28,988 nucleotides of DNA from Saccoglossus kowalevskii (taxonomy: Eukaryota > Hemichordata > Enteropneusta > Harrimaniidae), in the NCBI RefSeq assembly GCF_000003605.2, contig NW_003128863.1, positions 24,222 to 53,209 on the forward strand. Direction: 5' to 3'. Position numbers and translations under genes: made by a program. Positions within the stretch are counted from its first letter, which is position 1. Each line of letters begins with the position of its first letter. Shown here piece by piece: positions 9,623 to 27,237 of the stretch. The notes below the pieces were generated by a model that saw only the letters and a program-made list of their open reading frames with translations, had not been told where the DNA came from and did no database searches.

Positions 9623-10037
9623 TAAACCACTGCATGTGCATATGTTCCAGGTAAACTACTAGACACATACAAAGAAGGAACCTGACTTTGATGTGAGCTT
9701 TGTGCGCGCCTAGGGTATTCGAATGTCCCCTGTTAGGTAATTTCCTAAATAACGCTAGTGCGCAACTCTAGAGGACTTCGAAAACTACTGCGCAGCCCCA
9801 GAAGGTGCCAGAATTTTTTTGCTGGCTCAATTTGCTCTCAAATTTACTCCGGTTTTCGCTGTAACCGGTCACTTAGACCATGACGACTCCAAATAACGAC
9901 AGGGCGCAACTCTAGAGGACTTCGAAAACTACTGCGCAGCCCCAGAAGGTGCCAGAATTTTTTGTCGGGTCAATAAGGTCTCAAATTGGCGCTAGGGCAG
10001 CCCTTCATTGTTCCCCTGGCTCCTATTGTTCTTCATT

Positions 10038-10089
10038 TGACCTCGTGACCTTGATGTGACCTCGTGACCTCAATTTGACCATGTGACCT
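10038..10089 (+). promoter_or_regulatory. TGACCT half-site cluster (representative unit)
   Basis: Six half-sites (five TGACCT and one TGACCA) start at 10038, 10046, 10057, 10065, 10076 and 10084, so spacers alternate exactly 2, 5, 2, 5, 2 bp. TGACCT is the complement of the nuclear-receptor half-site AGGTCA; direct repeats with 2- or 5-bp spacers are the classical RAR/RXR arrangements. Similar clusters occur in the other satellite monomers. It may simply be a 19-bp minisatellite inside the satellite; binding is not shown. Confidence 0.4.
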
Positions 10090-13000
10090 CTGTGCGCGTC
10101 AAGGGTATTTGAATGTCCCCTGTTAGGGCATTTCTGGTTGGATTTGACTGCGGCTTTTGCTGTACCTGGTCAATTCGACCATGGCGAGTCTAAATAACGA
10201 CAGTGCGCAACTCTAGAAGATGTGTAAAACTACTGCGCAGCCCAAGAAGGTGTCAGAGTTTTTTTGCTGGCTCAATTTGCTCTCAAATTTACTCCGGTTT
10301 TTCGCTGTAACTGGTCAATAGACCATGACGACTCCAAATAACGGTAGTGCGCAACTCTAGAGGACTTGGAAAACTACTGCGCAGCCCCAGAAGGTGCCAG
10401 AATTATTTTGACTGATCAATTTGGTTTCGAATTGGCGCCAGGGCTACCTTCCATTGTTCCCTTAGCGGTTCCTTTGTTCCCTGGCCCCTATTGTCCTTCA
10501 TTTGACCTCGTGACCTGGATGTGACCTCTGTGTGACCCTGTGACCTCTGTGCGCGCCTAGGGTATTTGAATGTCCCCTGTTATGTTATTTCTGGTCGGAT
10601 TTGACTCCGATTGTCACTGTACTCGGTCAACTCGATCATGGCGAGTCTAAATAACGCTAGTGCGCAACTATAGAGAACTTAGAAAACTATTGTGCAGCCC
10701 TGGAATGTGCCAGAATTTTTTTGCTGGCTCAATTGAGAGCAAATTGACGCCTTGGCTTCACTCACTGTTCCCTTGGCGTTTTTTTTTGTTCCCTGACTCT
10801 ATTCTTCGTCATTTGACCTCGTGACTCTGGTGTATCCTCGTGACCTCGATGTGATCTCTGTGTGCGCCTAGGGTATTTGAATGCACTCTGTTAGGTCATT
10901 TCTGGCCGGATTTGTTTTTGCTGTACCCGGTCAATTCGACCACGGCGAGTCTAAATAACGCTAGTGCGCATCTATATATGACTTTGAAAACTATTGCACA
11001 GCCCCAGAATGTGGCAGAATTATTTTGCCTGCTCATTTTTGTCTCAAATTGGCGCTAGGGCAGCCCTCCATTGTTCCCTTGGCGGTTCCTTTGTTCCCTG
11101 GCTTCTATTGTTCTTCATTTGACATCATGATCTTGATATGACCTCATGACCTCGATTTGACGCTGTGACCTCTGTGCGCGCCTAGGGTATTTGAATGTCC
11201 CCTGTAAATTCATTTCCCTTCCGATTTGACTCTGGTTTTCGCTGTACCCGGTCAATTCGACCATGGTGAGTCTAAATAACGCTAGTGCGCATCTATATAT
11301 GACTTTGAAAACTATTGCGCAGCCCCAGAATGTGCCAGAATTATTTTGACTGCTCAATTTGGTCTCGAATTGGCGCCAGGGCTACCTTCCATTGTTCCCT
11401 GAGCGGTTCCTTTGTTTCCTGGCCCTATTGTCTTTCATTTGACCTCGTGACCTGGATGTGACCTCTGTGTGACCCTGTGACCTCTGTGCGCGCCTAGGGT
11501 ATTTGAATGTCACCTGACTTTGAAAACTATTGCGCAGCCCCAGAATGTGCCAGAATTATTTTGCCTGCTCATTTTTGTCTCAAATTGGCGCTAGGGCAGC
11601 CCTCCATTATTCCGTTGGCGGTTCCTTTGTTCCCTGGCTTCTATTATTCTTCATTTGACCTCATAATCTTGATATGACCTCGATTTGACGTTGTGACCTC
11701 TGTGCGCGCCTAGGGTATTTGAATGTCCCCTGTAAGTTCATTTCTCTTCGGATTTAACTCGGGTTTTCGCTGTACATGGTCAATTCGACCATGATGAGTC
11801 TAAATAACGCTAGTACGCATCTATAGAGAACTTGGAAAATTACTGCGCAGCCCCAGAAGGTGCCAGTATTATTTTGCCTGCTCAATTTGGTCTCAAATTG
11901 GCGCCATGGCAGCCTTCCAATGATCCTTTAGCGATTTCTTTGTTCCCTCGCTGTTCTTCATTTGACCTCGTGAACTTGGTGTAACCTCGTTTTCTGATTT
12001 GACCTTGTGACCTCGATGTGACCTCTGTGTGCGCCTATAGTTTTTGAATGTTCATGTTAGCTCATTTTTGGTAGGATTTGACTCCGGTTTTTGCTGGACC
12101 CGGTCAATTCGACAGGGCTACCTTCCATTGTTCCCTTGGCAGTTCACCAAGGTAACAAGGTGTATTTGAATGTCACCTGTTATGTTATTTTTGGTGGTAT
12201 TTGACTCAAATTTTCGCTGTACTCGGTCAATTCGACTATGACGAGTCTAAATAACGCTAGTGCGCAACTATAGAGGACTTCGAAAACTACTGCACAGCCC
12301 CAGAATGTGCCAGAATTTTTTTGCTGGCTAAATTTAGTCTAAAATTGGCGCTAGGGCAGCCCTTGGCGGTTCTTTTGTTTCCTGGTCGCTATTTTCCTTC
12401 ATTTGACCTCGTGACATTGGTGTGACCTCGTTACCACGATTTGACCTTGCGACTTCGATGTGTCCTCTATGAGCGACTAGAGTACATGAATGTCCCCTGT
12501 TATGTTATTTCTGGTCTGATTTGACTCCGGTTTTTGCTGTACCCGGTCAATTCGACCACGGTGAGCCTAAATAACACTAGTGCGCATCTATAGATGACTT
12601 GGAAAACTACTGCGCAGCCACAGAAGGTGCCAGAATTATTTTGCATGCTCAATTTGGTCCCAAATTGGCGACAGGGCTACCTTCCATTGTTCCCTTGGCA
12701 GTTCCTTTGTTCCCTGGCCCTATTGTTCTTCATTTGAACTCGTGACCTTGGTGTGACCTCGTGGTCTCGATTTGACCCTACCACAATGTGACCTCCATGC
12801 GCGCCTAGGGTATTTGAATGTCCCCTGCCAGGTAATTTCTGGTCCGATTAGACTCCGGTTTTTGCTGTACCCGGTCAATTCGAACTGGCGAGTCTAAATA
12901 ACGCTAGTGCGCATCTACAGATGACTTGGAAAACTACTGCGCAGTCCCAGAAGATGCTAGAATTATTTTGCCAGCTCAATTTGGTGTCAAATTGGCGCAA

Positions 13001-13712
13001 GGGCTGCCTTCCATTGTTCCCTTGGCGGTTCCTTTGTTCCCTGGCTCATATTGTTCTTCATTTGACCTCGTGACCTTGATGTGACCTTGTGCGCACCTAG
13101 GGTATTTGAATTTCCCTTGTTATGTTATTTCTGATCGGATTTGACTCCAATTTTTGCAGTACACGGTCAACTCGACCACGGCGAGTCTAAATAACGCTAG
13201 TGCGCAACTGTAGAGAACTTATAAAACTACTGCGCAGCCCCAGAAGGTGCCAGAATTATTTAGCCAGCTCAATTTGGTGTCAAATTGGCGCAAGGGCTGC
13301 CTTCCATTGTTCCCTTGGCGGTTCCTTTGTTACCTGGCCCCTATTGTTCTTCATTTGACCTCGTGACCTTGAAGTGACCACGATGTGACCTTGTGACCTC
13401 GATGTGACCTCTGAGCGCCTAGGGTATTTGAATGTCCCTTGCTAGGTAATTTCTGGTCCAATTTGACTCCGTTTTTTGCTGTATCCGGTCATTTCGACAA
13501 TGGCGAGTCTAAATAACGCTAGTGCGCATCTATAGATGACTTGGAAAACTACTGCGCAGCCCCAGAAGGTGCCAGAATTATTTTACCTGCTCAATTTGGT
13601 CCTCAATGGGCGCCAGGACTACCTTCCATTGTTTTTTCAGCGGTTCATTTGTTCCCTGGCCCCTATTGTTCTTCATTTGACCTCGTGACCTCGATTTGAC
13701 CTTGTGACCTCG

Positions 13713-14247
13713 ATGTGACGTCTGTGCGCGATTATGGTGTTTGAATGTCCCTTGTTAGATCATTTGTTTAAGTTAGTTTTGAATCATATATCTTCATTTG
13801 ATCTCGTGACCTTGATGTGACCTCGATGTCACCCTGTGATCTTTGTGCGCGCCTAGGGTATTTAAATGTCCCCTGTTATGTTATTCCTGGTGGGATTTGA
13901 CTCCGATTGTCGCTGTACCCGGTCAATTCGACCACGGCAAGTCTAAATAACGCTAGTGCGCATCTATAAATGACTTATAAAACTACTGCACAGCCCCAGA
14001 ATGTGCCAGAATTTTTTTGATGGCTCAATTTGCTCTCAAATTGATGCCTGGGATGCCATCTATTGTTTCCTTGGCGGTTCCTTTGTTCCCTGGCCCCTAG
14101 TGTTCTTCATTTGACCTCGTGACTTTGATTTGACCTCGTGACCTCGATTTGACCTGGTGACCTCAATGTGACGTCTGTGCGCGATTATGGTGTTTGAATG
14201 TCCCTTGTTAGATCATTTGTTTAAGTTAGTTTTGAATCATATATCTT
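13713..14247 (+). repeat. Duplicated right border of the satellite
   Basis: An 82-bp stretch running from satellite sequence into non-satellite sequence (ending GTTTTGAATCATATATCTT) occurs identically at 13713-13794 and 14166-14247, 453 bp apart. The array edge was thus duplicated together with at least one monomer. Confidence 0.85.
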
Positions 14248-14250
14248 ATT

Positions 14251-14739
14251 TCATTCAACATCACACTGATTCAAGAGATAAATACACTGAAGATGATTTG
14301 GTGAATATGATTAGTTTTCTCATTAGCATATTTATACTATATGGTGGGCAAGTCTTCCAACAAGCTTTGGATATAAGTCTTCTCAATACTTTTGTAATTA
14401 TTACTAGAATTCGTTAGACCAGTAAAGTTTGGCTGAATCTCAGTGTTGTTATAAAAAAATTTGTATATTTAGAGTATGTAATAAGAATAGAGTATTAAAA
14501 TTAATGATGACATTGAACATTTGTATCTCATATTTTAAAGAATGCACACGATTCAACACACAACACTTATAAAGAGCCAATAATAAAGTCAATTAGTAGG
14601 GGAGGGTCATTTTTTTTTCATGCACCATTCAAGGGAGAGCGCAGCAAATTTCATGCAAATGTTTGTGAAGGGTCATATATTTTTATGTACGCGACACTGG
14701 CCTATCCCTCTGTACTTTCTGTCCAGTCCCTTAGTAGAT
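14251..14739. other. Unclassified sequence between satellite and element copy
   Basis: AT-rich DNA followed by a segment (14600-14735) with GGGAGGGTCAT and ACTTTCTGTCCAGTCC, the latter matching the complement of 7668-7690. It is probably repeat-derived; no gene is visible. Confidence 0.35.
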
Positions 14740-15425
14740 AAAATGCGAAAAGAATTTGGGGCCCACCATTGCCATAGCAACAGCCAAAAACCTGAGTTGT
14801 TAATACCATCGCGCCAAATTAAAAGGATTAAACACCTCAGACATACATTTGTAGCTCATACTACTCAGCTTGAGTGTGGGCACAAAAATACTTTCGGTAC
14901 AATGTATTTGAATTTTTGATATCTTGTTACATTATCGAGAAATTTGACCCCCAAATTGGGGTAACTGTTCACCAGGAAGGGTATTGTTACTTTTCTGTGA
15001 GTTTTGTTGCTGGGCTGCTTTGGTTCAAACTTGGCAAGCCAATCACACCTTCACTCTAGTTAGGTGGTAAAATCCTTAAAAAAAGACTGATTTTTAAATA
15101 CTTTCGCCTTAAATGTATTACCTTCTATCAGTAATAGCAGTTTCACATAGACGAGAGATCATGATCACTGGTGCCCACATTGTTACAATGCACAATGTAA
15201 TCCCAACGCAACTTTGAACTTTAAATGAACTGTAAATGCTGCGTTCAATCAAAGAATCTAGAAAAAAAATCGCAAAAGTTCTGAAGACTGGATGCTGTTT
15301 GAGAACTTCGTATGAGTGACCCTGTGTTAGTGATACACCGACGCTAGCTTCACGTCCTACCATTGTAACAGCTGAAAACATGGTCCTTTGAGCTTAGTGG
15401 ATCGCCAACCAGCCGACCGGCTCGT
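14740..15425 (-). mobile_element. Inverse copy of the hairpin-ended repeat element
   Basis: Read on the minus strand it starts near 15425 with GAGCCGGTCGGCTGG and CGATCCACT, the counterpart of the 17711 left end. It then follows the same order as 17950-18480: GCAGCATTTACAGTTCATT, AAAGTTGCGTTGGGATTAC, GTTACCCCAA, ACTCAAGCTGAGTAG read in order, and GCTATGGCAA. Homology fades beyond ~14740; the CA tract and right end of the 17.7-kb copy are not seen, so this copy is probably 3'-truncated. The 87-codon ORF at 15118-15381 lies inside it and is not convincing. Confidence 0.6.
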
Positions 15426-17169: not shown

Positions 17170-20100
17170 TTACTTTCGTTCATCTATAGTTTTAATGAAT
17201 TCAACAGCCGCAGAAAATTGCATCCACCAATACTGCTCTTCCCCATTGAGTCTTTTCTCGTAAAAGCTATTGACGTATTGAATTGTAGATAGTAGACCTG
17301 GCGGATTAGCCTTGATAAGTACAAATACCAATACAGGAACAAAGTCATCAGCGCCAGGTACGGAATTATCATTGGCCATACTAAGCAGATTCATGATAGT
17401 TGAACAGCAGCGGATTACACACTGTAGTTTATCTTTTGGTGTCTGAAAGGAAAAGTACATGAATTGTTAATTGTTAAAAAAACGCCCCAATATAATTTCC
17501 AATGGTGGTGCCCTGATCAGTATGAAATTAACATGATCATACATTGTAAGAGTCTAGCTAAACATTTGTTCAAACATTAAGGCAGAGATGTGAATAGCTA
17601 TATACATACACTTCAGTGTAAATCCGGAAAACATCAATTAAAAATTTAAATCTGTGGTCTCAAAAACCCCTGGTTTCATGTAAGATATGTTGTAATCACA
17701 TACAAAAATAACAAGCCGGTAGGCTTGTTGGTGATCCACTCCGCTCAAAAACAAGCAACATGTTTTTGGCTGTTTCCCTGGTGTGACATAAACGTGAAGC
17801 TAATGTCTGTTTATAACTAAATGGGCCCCGTATACAAAACTCACAAAAACAATTCAGTCTTTAGAAGTCACTTAGTTTATTACTAGGACGTATTCTGCTC
17901 TTACATTTATTATTTTCAACCGTTTTGAGATAGTATTTTTTAGAATGAAGGCAGCATTTACAGTTCATTCAAAGTTCAAAGTTGCGTTGGGATTACGTTG
18001 ATACAGTGTAACAATGTCGGCACCGGTGATCTCCTACCAGTGTGCAACATAGCCAAAATAAAAAAGCATGGTCATTTGAACACTGCTATTACAAAACTGG
18101 TAGGAGGTAATACATTTGGGGTGAAAGTATTCAAAAATCAGTTTTTGGATATTGCAATGGCAGTGTTGGGCCAGGATTTTTTTTCCAATTAGTGACGGTA
18201 CGACTTACCTGTGAAGTATGAACAAAATCAGCCGAGCCAAAAAAATTACAGAGGAGATAAAAGCTGTTGCTGGTGAAAAGTTACCCCAACTTTAGGGTCA
18301 AATTTCTCAGTAATGAAAAAAGATATCAAAAATTCAAATAGTAACTTTGTGCCCACACTCAAGCTGAGTAGAATGAGCTAAAGTGTTTTATCCTAAATTT
18401 GTAGAAGATACATTTGGCACGAAGCTATCCAAAAATCAGTTTTTTGGCTTTTGCTATGGCAACAGTGGTCCCAAAAACAAATCTCAGATTTTTCCTAATA
18501 ACTAGGGTGAAGGTGTGACCTACCTGTCAAGTTTGGGAAAAATCAGCCAAGCCAAAAAAATCACAGAAGAAATCATATCATAGAAATCGTGAAAACACTG
18601 GAAATCACACACACACACACACACACGAAGCGACAAAAGTGCTTATAAGGGCAATCCTAGCGGAGCGGATCGCAATACTATCTGTACATGTAGGTGTGTG
18701 GGAAGGTACTATACTGGAATTATGTGAGAAGTATGTCTGTATCACATTAGCACACATATGCATGTTAGTATCATATAATCACATAGAAATGTTTGTATCA
18801 CATGAGCACATAGAAGTCTGTTTGTATCATGTGATCACATTAAAGTGTGTTAGCATCATGTGAGCACATAGAAGTATGTTAGTATCATGTGAGAACATAG
18901 AAGTATGTTAGTATCAAGTGAGCACATAAAGTATGTTAGTATCAAGTGAGCACATAGAAGTATGTTAGTATCAAGTGAGCACATAGAAGTATGTTAGTAT
19001 CATGTGAGAACATAGAAGTATGTTAGTATCAAGTGAGCACATAGAAGTATGTTAGTATCAAGTGAGCACATAGAAGTGTTTTAGAATCAAGTGAGCTCAT
19101 AGAAGTATGTTAGTATTATGTGAGCACATAGAAGTGTGTTAGTGACAAGTATTAATATCAGGGCTCATATCACTAAAGATCAAAATTATAGTGTTTTAAT
19201 TTCTTGAAACCAAATGTATGTAATAAAATTCTGGCCAAAAAAACACATGTTGGAGCCAGTTCAAACTCCTACAAAATAGATGTAAACAAAACGAATAAAT
19301 TTGTCAGGCTTTTTACCTTCAATATTCTCAGAAAAGCAGCCAGAGAGAGAGAGAGAGTTGTGCAGATCAACAGATCACTGGTACTTGCCAATAAACAAAG
19401 CTACACATACAAGTCTAACAGCTGGCGTATGCCCACACACACATCCAATTTCAGATAAAACTCTGTGACAATAGTCACCATATGATTTCAACACTGGTAG
19501 GCTAATTGGTGGTATGAGACCCATCATTTGAGCATATAGAACAAAAGTTTTCAATATACATGAGGCAAAGTACTCACTTTATATACATTAATGGTAAGTA
19601 ATTCTGCTTGTGCTGATGGCCAGGGGGCTTCTTTCCTATACTTCTCAGCCACCTGTAGTGCCCTGTGGCTGGCTGTCACAACCCTGGATAATCTTTTGAT
19701 GTGTTCATGAAGCACTCTAAAAAATAACAAAATTATTGTATTAGTACTTTAGTTTTATATGATTAATTCAGGATGGACTCAGGGTTTCAGTGGTATATCT
19801 TTTTTTTTATACATGTACATAATATATATCATAATGTGTATGTCTGTATAGTTTCTTAATTTGAATGTTTAATACACAGAGGGATACTTCCAGCACAATA
19901 CATTTACAAGAATAGCTGCTATTGTATACAGGTATACAAACCAGTTACAAGTTATGTTTCTTGTTACAACGACGGTACAAATAATCTGACTTGATATACT
20001 GTATTTGCTCTATTAGTAGTGCATGTATTTTATGTAAATAAGGTGTATATATAGTCAAAATAAATTCATATTAAAATGATCCAGCATACGATCAATGCAT

Positions 20101-22312
20101 TTTTTCATTTATCTGTGCTACTATTGGTGATACATGTATGCAAATACAGTATTTGTGGAAGCCTGGTACATTTCGCATACTGTTGTTGCACGAGTGATAT
20201 CTTTTTATTTTCCTAATTTAAATCACAAAGGCCTGACATTTGAAGGATATTTTAGCACATTTTCCCAACCAACTCAGATTGCTCTTCCTTTTCGCTTTAA
20301 AGTTTCAAGATACTATGTATTGACAGTTTTACATTAACTCCATATGCCAGATACGCCATTCCAATAGGTACTGCGAAATACTTTATTTTAGCCAGAATTA
20401 ATTTTCGCTGAAAAGGCATTTTGGGTGTTTTGTATGGAATTTATTTTCACTGATTTTTGACGAGCTGAATGTGAAATATAGGGAAAAAAGTATATTCGCT
20501 GGATTTCATTTTCATGGAATCATCCTTTCAGCGAAAATAGCAAAAATAAATTCCAAACGAAAATAAAGTATTCTACAGTACTCAACTACGTTAGTGCCCG
20601 ACCCCCACTTCTGCTCAATTTTTATATTTGGGGTCACATTCGGCAAAGTGCCCACCCCTTCAAAATGCAACTAATATAAAACTTGGTCTTGCGTAACGAA
20701 TCTTGGTAATCATTTTTTTTATGATACAGCATGGATATCGATCGCTGTGAATATGTTGTGAATGAAAAGACCACGGTAACCGTGCGTAAACTATGATTCG
20801 ACAATGACCTGTTATTACAAGTAAAATGCGGTAAATATTTCATGCCATATTCAGTTTACCTCTCAAAAATGGCTAGTTACTAGTTTTTTGAAAAAAACCA
20901 TGGCGTTTATTCGCTGAAATCAAATCCAACAGTTCGTACTTGGTCATCGATAATTCACTTCCACATTGCATTACCGAAAAATCTTTGGAAACTTACGAAG
21001 AATTGCGTTGGTACAACACAGCATTCTGATTGGTTAATAACCAACTTGACCCAATAGGTCAAAGGACGCTGCTGCAGGTCGAATCTGCAAATGCATCATG
21101 GCGGAAAGTGATTTTCATCGAGTGTTTGCGTGCGATCCAACACCTTCGTCAGTGGAGATAATAATGAAAATTTTGACTTAGACTGTGTTCCAACAGACTC
21201 TAATGTTTTTAATTTTGTAAATTCTGGTGGTACATAATTAATATTGTAATAAAACGTGCATATTTTTTGTGATCATTTCTGTTTCTTCATTGTGAAAATC
21301 AATGACCACGCAAATAATTTCGTAATTTGATTTTCCCTCAAAGATGTAATCTGTCACATGATGAATAAAAATTTTCATTTGCACTCTTTTTCGAGGGGGG
21401 TGGTCGGGTAAGTACCCACCCCTAAAAAATTCTGATTTTCTGAGTTGAGGCCCCTGGACGCTAACGCAGTCAAGTACGGTACTTACTGGTCCCGCATGAT
21501 ATCACCATCACCATTCGGATACAACGCTTGTTTGTATATTCTACTCATTATGGCTCGTTCTGTCGCAACCTGAGCATCTAGTATCTGGTCTTCGGTAGCG
21601 GCTGAAAAACAAGATGGTGAATCAGGTTTATTTACAGCACATTGTGTTTTGATGACATGAAGTAAAAACTAGGAGGCTATCATGAGAATACAATGAGGTT
21701 ATCGAGGATACTACAAAGTATGAACGAAGACAGTACAAGCGGGAGGATCGACCAACATGCAGCAGAGGTAATCATGCGTACTGTCTTATTATTATATACA
21801 TCTTTTCCTCCCAGGAATACATCATGGGAATGCGTAATTGTTCCAAATTTGGAATTAGCATTTCTTAATATGGTAAGATGAAAATACCAAGGGCAATACC
21901 GCAAAATTATGGCACGCTGTAACTTGTTGTGTTATGGTAACAGATGTATAATAAATTACACGCCTTAACAACCAAAGTAAGACTTTTCAAATTACTTTTA
22001 TTACCAGTCCTACTTTATGGATGCGAGACATGACAAATCTATGAAAGTAACAAGAGCGAGGCTGGACACATTTCAATTCCAATGTTTGAAGATGATACTC
22101 AAAAACAGATGACCATATGTTGTATTTAAAAGTGATGTGGATATATATACATGTATATTGCAAGATAACTTTAAATCCACCCTTAAACAATTTTGAGTTT
22201 GAATGTAAAATTGATGACTAACATGATCTGTGTTTGTTTACTCACCTTGCCATATAGGATCTTGGGATATCCAATTATAGAGATGTTGCAGGAATTCCTC
22301 AACGTGATCAGT
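17170..22312 (-). CDS. GAPVD1: GTPase-activating protein and VPS9 domain protein, last four exons
   Basis: GAPVD1 (RME-6) is a Rab5 guanine-nucleotide exchange factor with an N-terminal RasGAP-like domain, acting in endocytosis. Exons on the minus strand are 22312-22246, 21601-21487, 19716-19578 and 17442-17170, with acceptors CAG/TAG and donors GTGAGT or GTAAGT, and phases that join exactly; 197 codons in total. Encoded blocks include DHVEEFLQHLYNWISQDPIW, GDGDIMRDQVLHEHIKRLS, KEAPWPSAQAELLT, CSTIMNLLSMANDNSVPGAD, DFVPVLVFVLIKANPP and ending EFIKTIDERK. The VPS9 core has the family Asp, Pro and Tyr (ADDFVP, IQYV) that correspond to catalytic positions of Rabex-5. The protein ends where human GAPVD1 ends. 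No disabling change is seen. The upstream two thirds, including the RasGAP domain, were not found up to the right edge. Confidence 0.94.
17711..18671 (+). mobile_element. Hairpin-ended element with internal repeats and CA tract
   Basis: The left end has a perfect seven-base stem, ACAAGCC (GGTA) GGCTTGT (17711-17728). GATCCACTCCGCT at 17733-17745 is answered by its near-complement AGCGGAGCGGATC at 18659-18671. The interior has two diverged units ~320 bp apart (18090 and 18410: ATACATTTGG, AAAAATCAGTTTTTGG, TTGC.ATGGCA, CAGCC.AGCCAAAAAAAT), then (CA)n at 18606-18626. Subterminal inverted repeats, central tandem units and a microsatellite before the 3' end is the architecture described for Helentron-associated elements; assignment to that class is inference. 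It lies in the last GAPVD1 intron, opposite to the gene. Confidence 0.5.
18606..18626. repeat. (CA)n microsatellite
   Basis: About ten CA units, placed just before the right end of the hairpin-ended element. A shorter ACACAC tract occupies the matching place in the 7.6-kb fragment (TGTGTGTG read on plus). Confidence 0.9.
18745..19145 (+). repeat. 29-bp minisatellite, ~14 copies
   Basis: The unit is close to TTAGTATCAAGTGAGCACAT plus AGAAGTATG. Central copies are almost identical and edge copies are diverged. Two variants alternate, TCATGTGAGAACA and TCAAGTGAGCACA, hinting at a higher-order unit. It starts ~75 bp after the right end of the 17711-18671 element, inside the GAPVD1 last intron. 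The ORF at 18639-18863 is an effect of this repeat. Confidence 0.93.
19999..20149. mobile_element. 151-bp TA-flanked MITE
   Basis: Ends are CTGTATTTGC and GCAAATACAG, a perfect 10-bp terminal inverted repeat, flanked by TA on each side (19997-19998, 20150-20151). Similarity of the two arms continues inward with gaps (CTATTAGTAGTGC versus CAATAGTAGCACAG read in complement). No ORF is contained. TA flanks suggest a Tc1/mariner-like transposase in trans, which is inference. Confidence 0.6.
20371..20578. mobile_element. ~208-bp TA-flanked MITE, copy 1
   Basis: Left end CTGCGAAATACTTTATTTT and right end complement CTGTAGAATACTTTATTTT form the inverted repeat, with TA outside each. The interior carries TTTTCGCTGAAAAG near the left and CTTTCAGCGAAAA near the right, extending the palindromic character. 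A diverged second copy is at 22878-23063. The right end meets or overlaps the left end of the next transposon. Confidence 0.7.
20576..21479. mobile_element. ~0.9-kb non-autonomous DNA transposon at a GAPVD1 splice donor
   Basis: The left end (GTACTCAACTACGTTAGTG) and the complement of the right end (CCGTACTTGACTGCGTTAGC) are imperfect terminal inverted repeats with TA outside. The left border is ambiguous by about five bases because it abuts the MITE before it. The right TA (21480-21481) supplies position +6 and +7 of the GTAAGT donor of the GAPVD1 exon ending at 21487. The interior (20735-21350) is similar to the minus strand of 25659-26857, including a CTGATTGG box, AGGTC phrase, start codon region, AATAAAA and TTTCTTCATTGT. 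The element thus looks like a deletion derivative of a coding transposon. Confidence 0.6.
21098..21181 (+). pseudogene. First-exon remnant inside the 0.9-kb transposon
   Basis: ATGGCGGAAAG opens a 27-codon frame beginning MAESDFHRVFACDPTPSSVE and ending TAG. The ATG is preceded by CTGATTGG (a CCAAT box in reverse) and followed ~150 bp later by AATAAAA. The matching segment of the second element, read on its minus strand near 26091, has ATGGTGGAAAAT ... TTTGCGTACGATC, so the start region is conserved between two otherwise deleted copies. I do not recognise the protein; it may be the N-terminus of a transposase or accessory protein. Confidence 0.35.
21944..22112 (+). pseudogene. Non-LTR retrotransposon reverse transcriptase scrap
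   Basis: Two adjacent frames carry the end of a non-LTR reverse transcriptase region. Frame one (21944-22033) includes LTTKVRLFKLLLLPVLLYGC then ET and a TGA where Trp is usual. The second (22041-22112), one frame away, reads VTRARLDTFQFQCLKMILKN. The order 'L.TK.R.....VLPVLLYGCETW ... R.LDTFQ..CLK.IL' is typical of these elements just after the polymerase core. A stop and a frameshift make it dead. It lies in a GAPVD1 intron in antisense orientation. Confidence 0.75.
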
Positions 22313-22520
22313 CTGTAAATTTAAAGTAGGAATTATTGTTTTTATTTATTCATTTCAGGGATAATCAACAAGACTAAATTTCATTTATAGACTTTAAATG
22401 ACATTCCTGTCATTCTGTGATGATTCACTACTCATTGTGACGTGGATGCTTTTATTTTTTTACATGCAAAGGCACAGCATCCTAGACCGGCAGTTTTTCA
22501 CTCTCATGTCTTTTTTTTAC

Positions 22521-22582
22521 CTGCTGAATGGGTAGCCAAGCACAGAATGAACCAGCAATCTCTCTGATGGTGAGTGGGCACA
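22521..22582 (-). CDS. Candidate further upstream GAPVD1 exon
   Basis: A 62-bp minus-strand open block lies between an ATTAG acceptor-like site (22584-22583) and a CAG/GTAAAA donor-like site (22521/22520). It reads CPLTIREIAGSFCAWLPIQQ in the phase needed to join the 22312 exon. The composition is protein-like. However, its acceptor has a poor pyrimidine tract and I cannot confirm the residues against the family, so this may be chance. Confidence 0.3.
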
Positions 22583-22877
22583 CTAATCATTCAAAGTATT
22601 ATGTTCACTTCAATATTCTAAAATGTTCAATATTCTAAAAAATATAGTGCATCCACATCATCCAAATCATATGGTTTCACAGAGTAAATGTAAACACCCA
22701 AACAAATTGTGCATGAATTTACATAGAGATTGTGTATTTAACCATACATGGCAAAAAAAACAAATCTGTCCAATCTTAGTTAGTGCAGCATATGGCAAGA
22801 GACATAAAACACAATGGAAGGTTGTCAAATAGAGCACACTTTAATACACACTTGAAAACATGGCATGCTAATGTATA

Positions 22878-23063
22878 CTGTATAGTTGGAATTCATTTTC
22901 ACTCTAAAGTTTATTTGGGTGTTTTGTATTTTGTTTATTTTCACTGATTGATGACAAGTTGAATGTGAAACGTATGAAAAAAGGCATATTCAATTGATTT
23001 TATTTTCACTGAATCATCCCTTCAGCAAAATTAAATTATGAGCAAAAATGAGGTATTTTACAG
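22878..23063. mobile_element. TA-flanked MITE, copy 2
   Basis: A diverged copy of the 20371-20578 MITE: TA then CTGTATAGTTGGAATTCATT at the left and GGTATTTTACAG then TA at the right. Shared internal phrases are TTGGGTGTTTTGTAT, TTTATTTTCACTGATT and GAATCATCC.TTCAGC. The end repeats are more eroded than in copy 1. Confidence 0.65.
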
Positions 23064-23322
23064 TAGTCAATTGCTTACTAAGATGCTCTTGACTAGCAAA
23101 GCTGGACACCATGGGAGGAAGGGAGGGGGCTCTCGCTATACACCCTGCTATACCAGATTACCAACAAGATTATAATTTATAAAGTTGATTTTTATTTAAC
23201 ACATTTTCATGCAGAGTAACACTGCACATAACGAGACTTATATGTAGACACAATATAATATAATCTGAGTTTTTATGTTCTAGCAACTGACATTTTTATA
23301 GAGCAGAGTTAGAAGCATAACC

Positions 23323-23356
23323 AACAAGTCATTGTTAATGACACAGTCCCCGTCCA
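23323..23356 (+). repeat. Dispersed hairpin motif, copy 2
   Basis: AACAAGTCATTGTTAATGAC then ACAGTCCCCGT. GTCATT and AATGAC form a perfect six-base stem with a three-base loop. It matches copy 1 at 8572 and lies ~165 bp before the left inverted repeat of the 23.5-kb element. Confidence 0.5.
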
Positions 23357-23639
23357 AAATGTTGTGATCTGACATATCAATTTGATACTGATGAAGTCAT
23401 TGAGATTAGATTGATTAAAGGGGAACTAAATAGAGCCTATTTTGGTGTTTGTATTTATCAAGTTATGTATATTGATTATAAATTTGAAAAAAAAATCAAA
23501 ATCAAAGAAAACTTAGAAAGAACTCCCGTGTGCTGAGAGTATTGGAGACACATTAAAAAATAATTCAAAATTACTTGAACTTGAGATATTGATGGAAATG
23601 CAGAAAACTAATTATGCAAATAAGGTAACTAATATGAAC

Positions 23640-24930
23640 ACATTTAAGTGTAAAACTAATAAGGTCTGCGCAATGTAAAAGTAATAAGATCTGCGTAATG
23701 TAATATCTATGTACCAAGTTTCATTGAAATGTGATTAGAACCAAAAAATTATTAATTATTGTGCTAATTAAGAGAATTAATCAGGCTGTCTATTGTCCTA
23801 GAGCATTTATGTACCAAGTTTTATTCAAATGTGATGATCAATACTTGAGATATCAGTATTAATTAATTAATTAATTATGTTAATTATGTTAATTAGGTGA
23901 TTAGCATAAATATTTACCAAAACTAATATGGTGTATAGTCCTACACATGTAGGTTCATTGAAATGTGATGAGTACTCTTTAAAAGTTTCATTAAAATTCA
24001 ATGAGTGGTTCTTAGGACAAATTAACTAATTAAGCAAATTAGTAGTTAATATGCACAATAATTTATCCTAAAATTAATCAGGTCTCTGCATAGTCCTAGA
24101 AGATCTATGTCGCAAGTCTCATTGAAATGTGATGATTAGTACTTGAGATATCAGGTGAAGGGCTGAAAATTAACTAATTATGCTAATAAGGTGATTAATA
24201 TGCACAAATATTTCTCCAAAAACTAATTAGGTCTCTGCACTGCACAGTCCTCAAGTAACTATGTACCATGTTTCATTGAAATGTGTTCATTACTACTTGA
24301 AATATCAATAGCTGAAAATGAATTAATTATGCAAATTAGGTAATTAATATGTACTGATATTACCCTAAAAACTATCAAGTCTGCGCAGTCTCATATGACA
24401 TCTATGTACCAAGTTTTATTGAAATGTTATGATTAGTACTTGAGATATCAGTGGAAAAGCCGAAAATTGATTAATCATTATGCAAATTAGGTAATTAATG
24501 TAAACAGATTTTTACCCAAAACTAATGAAATCTGCGCATTAGATCAGAGCATCCATGTGCCAAGTTTCATCAAAATCCAATGAGTGGTTCTTCAAATATC
24601 AGTGGAACAGTCATGAAACAGCTTAAAATCAGTTAATTATCCAGCAAATTAGTATTTAATATTCATAGATTTTTACCCAAAACAAATCAAATCTGCGCAT
24701 TAGTTCAGAGCATCCATGTGCCAAGTTTCATCAAAATCCAATGAGTGGTTCTTCATATATCAGTGGAACAGTCATGGAACATCTAAAAATCAGCTAATTA
24801 TCATGCAAATTAGGTAATTAATATTCATAGATTTTTACCAAAACCTAATCAACTCTGCGCATTATCCCAGAGCATCTATGTACCAAGTTTCACCAAAACT
24901 TAATTAGTGATTCTTTAGATAACGGTGGAA
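23640..24930 (+). repeat. ~155-bp tandem array, about nine units
   Basis: The anchor ACCAAGTTT(C/T)AT or a variant occurs at 23713, 23813, ~23950, 24111, 24264, 24408, 24559, 24720 and 24882; later spacings are 144-162 bp and the first are shorter. Each unit also has GAGATATCAGTGG, TTAATTATGCAAATTAGGTA, ATTTTTACCCAAAACTAAT and TCTGCGCA. The last units are the most alike, the first most decayed. Confidence 0.9.
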
Positions 24931-24941
24931 CAAAAAAAGTG

Positions 24942-25013
24942 ACATACATACACATACATACATACATACATACATACATACATACATACATACATACATA
25001 CATACATACATAC
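24942..25013. repeat. (ACAT)n microsatellite
   Basis: About 18 near-perfect tetranucleotide units directly after the tandem array and before the 3' arm of the element. Confidence 0.97.
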
Positions 25014-25439
25014 AGACAGGGTAACTGCAAAGACTCCATTTTGTGCTTCGCACACGGGAGTCAAAAATGATTATCTTCAGAGTTATGATAATTTAAATAT
25101 GAGAAACCATACCCCTGCGAAGGACTTCCGTTTGCACTATCTTGCCATAAAAAACACCCTCATGAAATATAAACAGGTAAGGTAACAAAGCATGATGACG
25201 AAATAGTATCTGATTAAATATAAGCAACTTAGGGAGCCATAGTTGGCTGGACTGGTGAATTGACTTCTAGTCTAGGTTGTTTCGACTTTTACATTAATGT
25301 TATTTACAAGCGTATCAACATACAAACATTATGGATGTGCGATTGATCAAGACAAGCATTTTGTTTTGTTTTTTGTCTATTAAACTGTCTAATAAATGCT
25401 GTTTCCAGTACTGCACTGTGTGGCGTGCAAATTATTCAA

Positions 25440-25656
25440 AAGATGGATGCTGGAGTATGCAATCTTGAGTTCATAGGTGGTGGTGGAAACATTTTCGTCC
25501 ATGCATTCACAGGGCTGCACTGGCAAATCATGGGACAATTGTCACAGGAACACCAACAGACTTCCGTGTAATTTGAAATAAAACTATCATTCGAACAAGG
25601 GGCGTCGACGATATACTCTCATCACTCACACTGGACTGATCTGAATCTTCATAGTA
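25440..25656 (-). pseudogene. Acidic and Cys-rich coding relic
   Basis: On the minus strand, just inside the TA border of the next transposon, is YYEDSDQSSVSDESIS (from 25656). In another frame follows TEVCWCSCDNCPMICQC (25529-25567 region). An acidic Ser-rich leader followed by W-C-x-C-x-x-C-x-x-M resembles invertebrate transposon-associated proteins with the P2X7-receptor-like C-terminal zinc domain, but the later Cys pair is not in the usual place and a frameshift separates the parts. I rate this a decayed fragment, possibly split by the adjacent insertion. Confidence 0.3.
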
Positions 25657-25658
25657 TA

Positions 25659-26857
25659 CCGTACTTCCCTGATCATAAGCCCGGAGGCATGAACACGTAA
25701 GGGAAAAGTAAGGGATGAGCTTATACTCGAGGACCAACTCAGAAAAGATGATTTTGTTTTGGAGTTAAACACTGTAACCATCTTTCTAACAACAAAATAA
25801 TATCCAAAAAAATTATTCGTTCACCACGCCGGGCTCGAGAAAATAATACTTATTTTTTTTAAAAATGTGTCATTGATTTCCACGGCACTTACAATGAAGA
25901 AACAAACATGTTCATAAAAAACACACACATTTTATTACAATTCGATTTACCGGTACATACCGTCTGACTTTACGGTGAAATAATGGGTAGGGTCTGTGAG
26001 TAAACAGTGGACGAAGGCATTTATCATTATCTTTGTTTTGGTATGTTTTCGATCGTACGCAAATTCTCAACGCAAAGCAATTTTCCACCATGAGATTTTT
26101 CAGCATGATTTGACCTGGACCAACTTTCTTTAACCTAACAGGTCATGTCTTTTATTTACCAATCAAAATGATGTGTCGTAATGATGACATTTTCCAATTA
26201 TTGATAATGATTTTTTAACGCAATGCGGAAGTGAATTACCGCAATGTTAAAATGCGATCTGTAGCACTGATTGCAACGAAAAAACGATGATTTTTCCCTA
26301 AAAACTGGCAATTCGCAATTTCCAAAATATAAACGACGGTTAATAGTAACCGTGGGTAAACTGAGTGTGGAGAAAGAATTTAAACACCTTTCACGGTCGC
26401 CAACATGTCACATCATTCAAACCCTAGGCCTTTCATGATAGTCTCAAAGTAAACCATGCCCAATAACCAGGTACATGACTTAACAATCACATTTTTGACT
26501 TTTCAAAAGCTACTACTCAAAGAAATATGGATTACTCCAGTATTGCAACATCAGGGCTCATCCTGAGTAAATGACAGAATAGAAAGGATGCGAAAAATGT
26601 TGTGTACGTTCGCCATGCTATCTGAAATTAATGCGAGTTTTCTCATAAAAGCTAAAAGCACGAACCAAACTACCATGCCAATCACGATTATTATGAAATG
26701 AAACACACCTTTTACACGCATATTTTAAAGAATATCGTCAACGCCCAGTAAAAACACTGGGCTTATAATCGTGAATGCTCTCAACTCGATAAATACCGAG
26801 TAAAAATATAGGGATGGGCTTCATACTCGGGAGGGGCTTACGATCGGGGAAGTACGG
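25659..26857. mobile_element. 1.2-kb TA-flanked non-autonomous DNA transposon
   Basis: The left end CCGTACTTCCCTGATCATAA and complement of the right end CCGTACTTCCCCGATCGTAA form a ~25-bp terminal inverted repeat with two or three mismatches, flanked by TA (25657-25658, 26858-26859). Subterminal copies of GGGATGRGCTT(C)ATACTCG occur near both ends. The minus-strand interior (26340-25860) parallels 20880-21290 of the other transposon: TTCACTTCC, TTGATTGGT, AGGTC, an ATGGTGGAAAAT start region, TTGTAATAAAA and GTTTCTTCATTGT. The 64-codon minus ORF at 25912-26106 covers this remnant. No recognisable catalytic domain remains. Confidence 0.75.
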
Positions 26858-26859
26858 TA

Positions 26860-27237
26860 CTTTAACGCAATTGGGCTTCCACTCTCAGAATACTGTGGTT
26901 CAAACGCATAAGGCTCTAACCCAAGTTTTAAAAAGCACATTGTGCATATAAAAGTTGAGTTTATACTAATAGTACACAATGCTTGGCAGCATGAACGGCT
27001 ATGTACAATGGCGTATACGAATGCGATCAGACACTAAAATGTCATAGCTTTATTCCCCTCCATGAATGGCCTCCATGGTGTTTAATTGCAAGCACTTCAA
27101 ATGCCTATTCAAGCTACAGTTATAATTAAAACAAAATTAAACCACTGCAATATTATTTCGAATACAGTTTAGAATATACACAACTATAAATTTAGGTTCG
27201 CTTTAATACGAGATGGATTTGTAAAAAAATTATGATT
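26860..27237. other. Unclassified AT-rich spacer
   Basis: No ORF, repeat unit or RNA gene recognised between the transposon and the tandem array. Confidence 0.45.

Follow-up and report, generated by a model that had tools for sequence, protein, structure and literature searches.

Two TA-flanked inverted-repeat elements with homologous interiors in Saccoglossus kowalevskii, one multiplied by its own ends and one carried inside a larger repeat

Transposons whose interior is better kept than their ends are already known from corals: in Acropora, the elements called CMITEs form families with different terminal inverted repeats (TIRs) around an interior that is better conserved than those TIRs (PMC2872659). 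Elements of the pogo superfamily usually target TA and have short TIRs (PMC7386202, PMC9976928), which are 40 bp or less in most families (PMC7386202). Here we describe two elements, A and B, in a stretch of 28,988 nucleotides (nt) of Saccoglossus kowalevskii (contig C2071:24222-53209 in the host genome; hereafter the window). An earlier note on the window took them to be two TIR elements at TA that share descent and have diverged at the ends, and the alignments of interiors and arms given below agree with this. A and B are confirmed as TA-flanked inverted-repeat elements with homologous interiors, and their main parts are as follows.

Element A, 20576-21479, plus strand: 904 nt, TA at 20574-20575 and 21480-21481; member of a sharp-ended multi-copy family.
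Element B, 25659-26857, minus strand: 1199 nt, TA at 25657-25658 and 26858-26859.
A 5' TIR, 20576-20599, plus strand: tip damaged; family form CCGTACTCGACCGCGTTAGCGCCC.
A 3' TIR, 21456-21479, minus strand: CCGTACTTGACTGCGTTAGCGTCC on the minus strand.
B 5' TIR, 26834-26857, minus strand: CCGTACTTCCCCGATCGTAAGCCC.
B 3' TIR, 25659-25682, plus strand: CCGTACTTCCCTGATCATAAGCCC; three genome places have a similar end after DDE_1 remains.
Shared interior block in A, 20867-21306, plus strand: extends to AATCAATGAC when the majority sequences are aligned.
Shared interior block in B, 25869-26321, minus strand: from alignment, shuffles and majority sequences.

The interiors align in opposite orientation, A 20867-21293 against B 26321-25891, with 298/442 positions matching (E 2e-30), and the alignment score of 170 was reached by none of 1000 dinucleotide shuffles, whose maximum was 37. 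Ungapped identity is 308/409 (Kimura two-parameter distance 0.30), and 346/437 positions are identical between the family majority sequences, which are built from 8 copies of A and 12 of B. Pairwise alignment of the two intervals thus bears out the shared interior that had been read from the letters alone. Comparison of the whole window revealed no further copy of the block elsewhere in it. The TIRs are about 24 nt long in both elements. The inverted ends of B, counted with the TA, are paired at 92% along 26 nt, and those of A match at 18/24 positions by eye, with an anchored score reached by 0/200 shuffles. Compared with the family form TA-CCGTACTCGACCGCG, the left tip of A is damaged, with CAG for CCG and about 18 nt missing just inside. 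A small repeat ending in TACAGTA (20369-20580) overlaps this damaged tip, CAGTA being common to both, and a second copy of that repeat lies at 22876-23065 (79% over 145 nt). No catalytic domain is left in A or B, as the earlier note had it: eight overlapping open reading frames (ORFs) of at least 60 amino acids and two short peptides gave only weak matches below the cut-off against Pfam.

Both elements belong to multi-copy families, as had been proposed. In the host genome (4830 contigs, 572,110,611 bases), the A query gave 43 matches (40 of 736 candidates scored) and the B query 52 (40 of 659 candidates scored); these counts are lower bounds, and some matches are pieces of one copy. Eight A copies have the common ends TA-CCGTACTCGACCGCGTTAGCGCCC and GGGCGCTAACGCGGTCGAGTACGG-TA, with tips TA-CCGTACT...AGTACGG-TA that are damaged in some, and their flanks differ; TA adjoins A, B and most of the A copies read. 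Because these eight copies share sharp ends while their flanks differ, A moved by its own ends, and it is by these ends that the A family multiplied.

B multiplied in another way. The 11 other B copies read all match the window outside B: on one side the similarity extends to about 27206, on the other it runs to 25063 in 8 copies, and in the three copies tested (3/3) it resumes at 23501-23409, past an inserted repeat. The repeat that contains B is the following.

Larger repeat containing B, about 23415-27206, minus strand: TTAA-type ends TTAAAGCGAACCTAAAT.../...TTTAGTTCCCCTTTAA, an inverted pair by eye; interrupted at 23502-25062.

Since the flanks outside the TIRs of B are common to the copies, these are copies of the larger repeat and B is its passenger: B is not the multiplying unit and is carried within the TTAA-ended repeat. 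The repeat inserted at 23502-25062 consists of diverged units of 150-160 nt with an ACAT microsatellite and is bounded by CTCCCGTGTGC and GCACACGGGAG.

The earlier note let the ends of A and B agree only in CCGTACTT and a few later bases. The ends are indeed diverged, but the agreement goes further than this once the A-family majority is used in place of the single A copy. With the majority, the global score of the 3' arm against B lies above all 533 controls (1/535 reach it without the last 26 nt), and that of the 5' arm exceeds every one of 514 control segments (6/516 without the first 26 nt), although the 5' arm stays at chance in local score even so (133/514). The A copy itself gives 0/533 controls for the 3' arm, then 5/535 by global and 0 by local score without the last 26 nt, and 25/538 and 1/538 when the first 30 nt are removed as well; its 5' arm is weak (9/514 controls reach the global score and 195/514 the local one, and the wrong strand equals it locally). 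Past base 8, the similarity between the tips of A and B is no more than chance (89 to 153 of 200), apart from the 3' pair (10/200). On these alignments the ends of A and B are homologous, yet more changed than the interior.

A survey of DDE_1 domains in the host genome gave 54 matches, each examined with limited flanks, and in the stretches holding them B-type 3' arms follow DDE_1 remains, in decayed copies, at three places.

C4080 (L034/L040), matching B 1077-1197: 78%, E 2e-23; B-type 3' arm by DDE_1 remains.
C3852 (L044/L063), matching B 1021-1190: 83%, E 8e-48; B-type 3' arm by DDE_1 remains.
C4447 (L047/L062), matching B 1098-1199: 80%, E 3e-21; B-type 3' arm, tip TACCATACTTCCCCGAGTATAAGCCC.

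Pfam recognizes DDE_1 in ORFs of C4080 (E 1.8e-10, and a second, just below the cut-off, at 2.1e-4) and in an ORF of C3852 (E 6.3e-7). Stretches of C4080 and C4447 align with each other over 453 and 568 columns at 82-85%, and the arm of C4080 is matched by the 3' arm of the A family too (0/300 shuffles). Because B-type 3' arms accompany pogo-type DDE_1 remains, the ends are pogo-type; it is from these ends, and not as proven members, that we call A and B pogo-like, and we assign them to no family within pogo. A transposase beside the block at L039/L015 is not claimed, the match there being to a 21-base box only (20/21, E 0.002). Diverged copies of the block lie at L062 6055-5804 (76%, E 2e-55) and L064 1472-1052 (E 1e-11), the bounds of both not placed. 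Exact sequence patterns had no matches in virus and prokaryote contig collections, and a literature search with the TIR letters returned, among the matches listed and judged from the listing alone, none about transposons. B-family copies on C4618, C994, C2715, C344 and C1053 match B only to bases 712-779 and possibly differ in the middle; the 54 DDE_1 matches include none on these contigs.

The shared block runs, in order, through TAATTCACTTCC, TGATTGG, TGACC...AGGT, an ATG, a weaker stretch, and AATAAA followed by a run rich in T or GT.

TGATTGG box, A 21027-21033, plus strand, and B 26159-26165, minus strand: aligned, upstream of the ATG; putative promoter element.
ATG frame of A, 21098-21181, plus strand: 27 codons and a stop; A-family majority MAESDFHREFAYDPTPSSVEII, then stop; no Pfam match.
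Tail frame of A, 21145-21237, plus strand: TAA at 21235-21237, in a frame other than that of the ATG; counterpart in B, TAA 25949-25947.
AATAAA, A 21248-21253, plus strand, and B 25936-25931, minus strand: T-rich run after it; putative poly(A) signal.

The A-family majority reads YDNFDFDCVPTDSNVFNFVNSGGT and a stop in another frame just before AATAAA; in the B-family majority the frame that starts at the ATG is open for 57 codons, with a related tail in another frame. The ATG and the tail thus lie in different frames, which could be the outcome of a deletion. Of the gaps between ATG and AATAAA, 5/9 are multiples of three, versus 1/12 upstream (p 0.046), and the similarity of the tail peptides stands at 18/2000. 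The earlier note had seen here a promoter and a first exon. A promoter-like box and an ATG are present, but the block exceeds a promoter and first exon because a conserved AATAAA comes about 150 nt past the ATG. The block may be a collapsed gene, a transcription unit without its middle, which is so far unproven. The idea that derivatives repeatedly keep the 5' part of a gene is not supported, one shared deletion being sufficient. Upstream of the block, both elements have a small palindromic motif of CACGGT..ACCGT type (A 20772-20784, B 26336-26353; by eye, a 16/17 inverted match).

We give a probability of roughly two in three to the reading that one non-autonomous pogo-type ancestor gave rise to both elements, A as a self-mobile branch and B as a passenger, with the block inherited as a collapsed gene. 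The ancestor would have been a TA-targeting, cut-and-paste element. The A branch, whose copies have sharp ends in differing flanks, would have multiplied by those ends with transposase presumably supplied in trans, while an old copy of the sister branch, B, probably landed in the larger TTAA-ended repeat and then multiplied with it, as the outer flanks shared by B copies suggest. The interior would have passed down from the common ancestor as a transcription unit without its middle, with promoter box, ATG, stop and AATAAA, and the outer arms changed more than the interior.

Several observations weigh against this reading, beginning with the small number of copies read, 8 of A and 12 of B. The block is absent by the three DDE_1 places in the stretches searched, which stop short of the 5' ends of the elements there. 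It scores at or near chance upstream of the three transposases (lowest values 2/100 and 4/100, with the A-family block), and its poly(A) part does no better than chance at C4080 (165/300 and 143/300). The 5' tips were not found upstream of the three DDE_1 remains in the stretches searched, and there was no complete transposase element among the stretches read. A transposase copy adjoining MAESDFHRVF-like sequence would have supported the earlier note, and the genome supplies this in part: DDE_1 remains with B-type 3' arms occur at the three places, but in the stretches searched the block was not found beside them. The block may therefore not derive from this transposase gene. Nor does it have a clear coding signal, the signs of former coding being slight: mismatches by codon position are 6, 11 and 5 in the ATG frame (p 0.93), and 6, 9 and 11 in the tail frame (p 0.21; last part 3, 5 and 9, p 0.056), so that a coding reading of the block is not proven. 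Finally, plain descent does not explain the excess divergence of the arms, which are far more diverged than the rate of the core predicts (simulated mean scores 126 and 195, observed 25 and 24; 0/1000 each, in a simulation with one rate and short indels only), and the identities of sub-blocks differ weakly (p 0.04, best of three).

The absence of the block beside the transposases seen gives more weight to capture, which we consider somewhat unlikely. The common ancestor would then have taken the block, like a Pack-TIR, from a host gene or another element, and the block would not be a remnant of the transposase gene; such Pack-TIRs exist in animals (PMC8277862). Against this, no source gene was seen (host loci were not searched for one), the three DDE_1 elements were not followed to their 5' ends, and the block offers no clear coding signal.

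The simulated excess in arm divergence would also fit an exchange of ends, in which recombination joined one interior to different ends, and so would the other surroundings of the block copies at L062 and L064. We think such an exchange improbable, as the arms are homologous when the A majority sequence is used and one DDE_1-linked arm is matched both by B and by the 3' arm of the A family. Still more doubtful is that selection keeps a promoter-start-poly(A) module, as a cis element or a short decoy transcript, which was joined to different ends and also rides an unrelated TTAA element; were it true, one module would use several transposases. That an independent repeat entered two unrelated TIR elements is very improbable: similarity does peak in the block, which has the copies of unplaced bounds at L062 and L064, but the arms are homologous too and all 8 A and 12 B copies hold the block in the same place (whole-element queries favour such copies).

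Around the elements, a gene with a VPS9 domain runs through the window on the minus strand (exon 17170-17466, E 1.8e-29 in a domain search). We take it to be GAPVD1-like. Element A sits five bases inside an intron: the minus-strand exon 21487-21601 ends in ..GACCA, followed by GTAAG and the TA target (21479-21487, by eye). Long imperfect inverted repeats flank the VPS9 exon at 14755-15355 and 17792-18568, with arms of 28 to 82 nt, and a large tandem array at 9683-14271 has a GTGACCT-rich unit of about 300 nt and a G+C content of about 46%, against 31-38% elsewhere. Rfam gave no match within the window.

In A and B, non-autonomous elements with an interior that outlives the ends are seen in a second setting, here with pogo-type ends and TA targets, and B shows clearly how one transposon is multiplied as a passenger inside another; the case is unusual in detail and known in kind. 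All copies together could show whether the interior is kept because it is functional or whether the ends merely change faster. With pogo they have in common the TA target, TIRs of about 24 nt and, through the B-type 3' arms in the host genome, a DDE_1-type transposase; they differ in having no transposase inside, as expected of non-autonomous copies. They resemble miniature inverted-repeat transposable elements in their TIRs, lack of coding capacity and many copies (those of B that were read being owed to the larger repeat), although at 904 and 1199 nt they exceed the usual size, given as under 500 bp in PMC2872659. With the Pack-TIRs of animals (PMC8277862) they share a TIR element with a gene-like interior, but no donor gene is known for A and B. 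The CMITEs are about 100 bp long and piggyBac-like, with TTAA targets and a 75-base interior (PMC2872659), whereas A and B have TA targets, a block of about 430 nt and pogo-like ends. Like A and B, the CMITEs combine a shared, better-kept interior of unknown origin with different TIRs in which the outermost motif is kept, and a new element made by insertion of a CMITE has been described there (PMC2872659).

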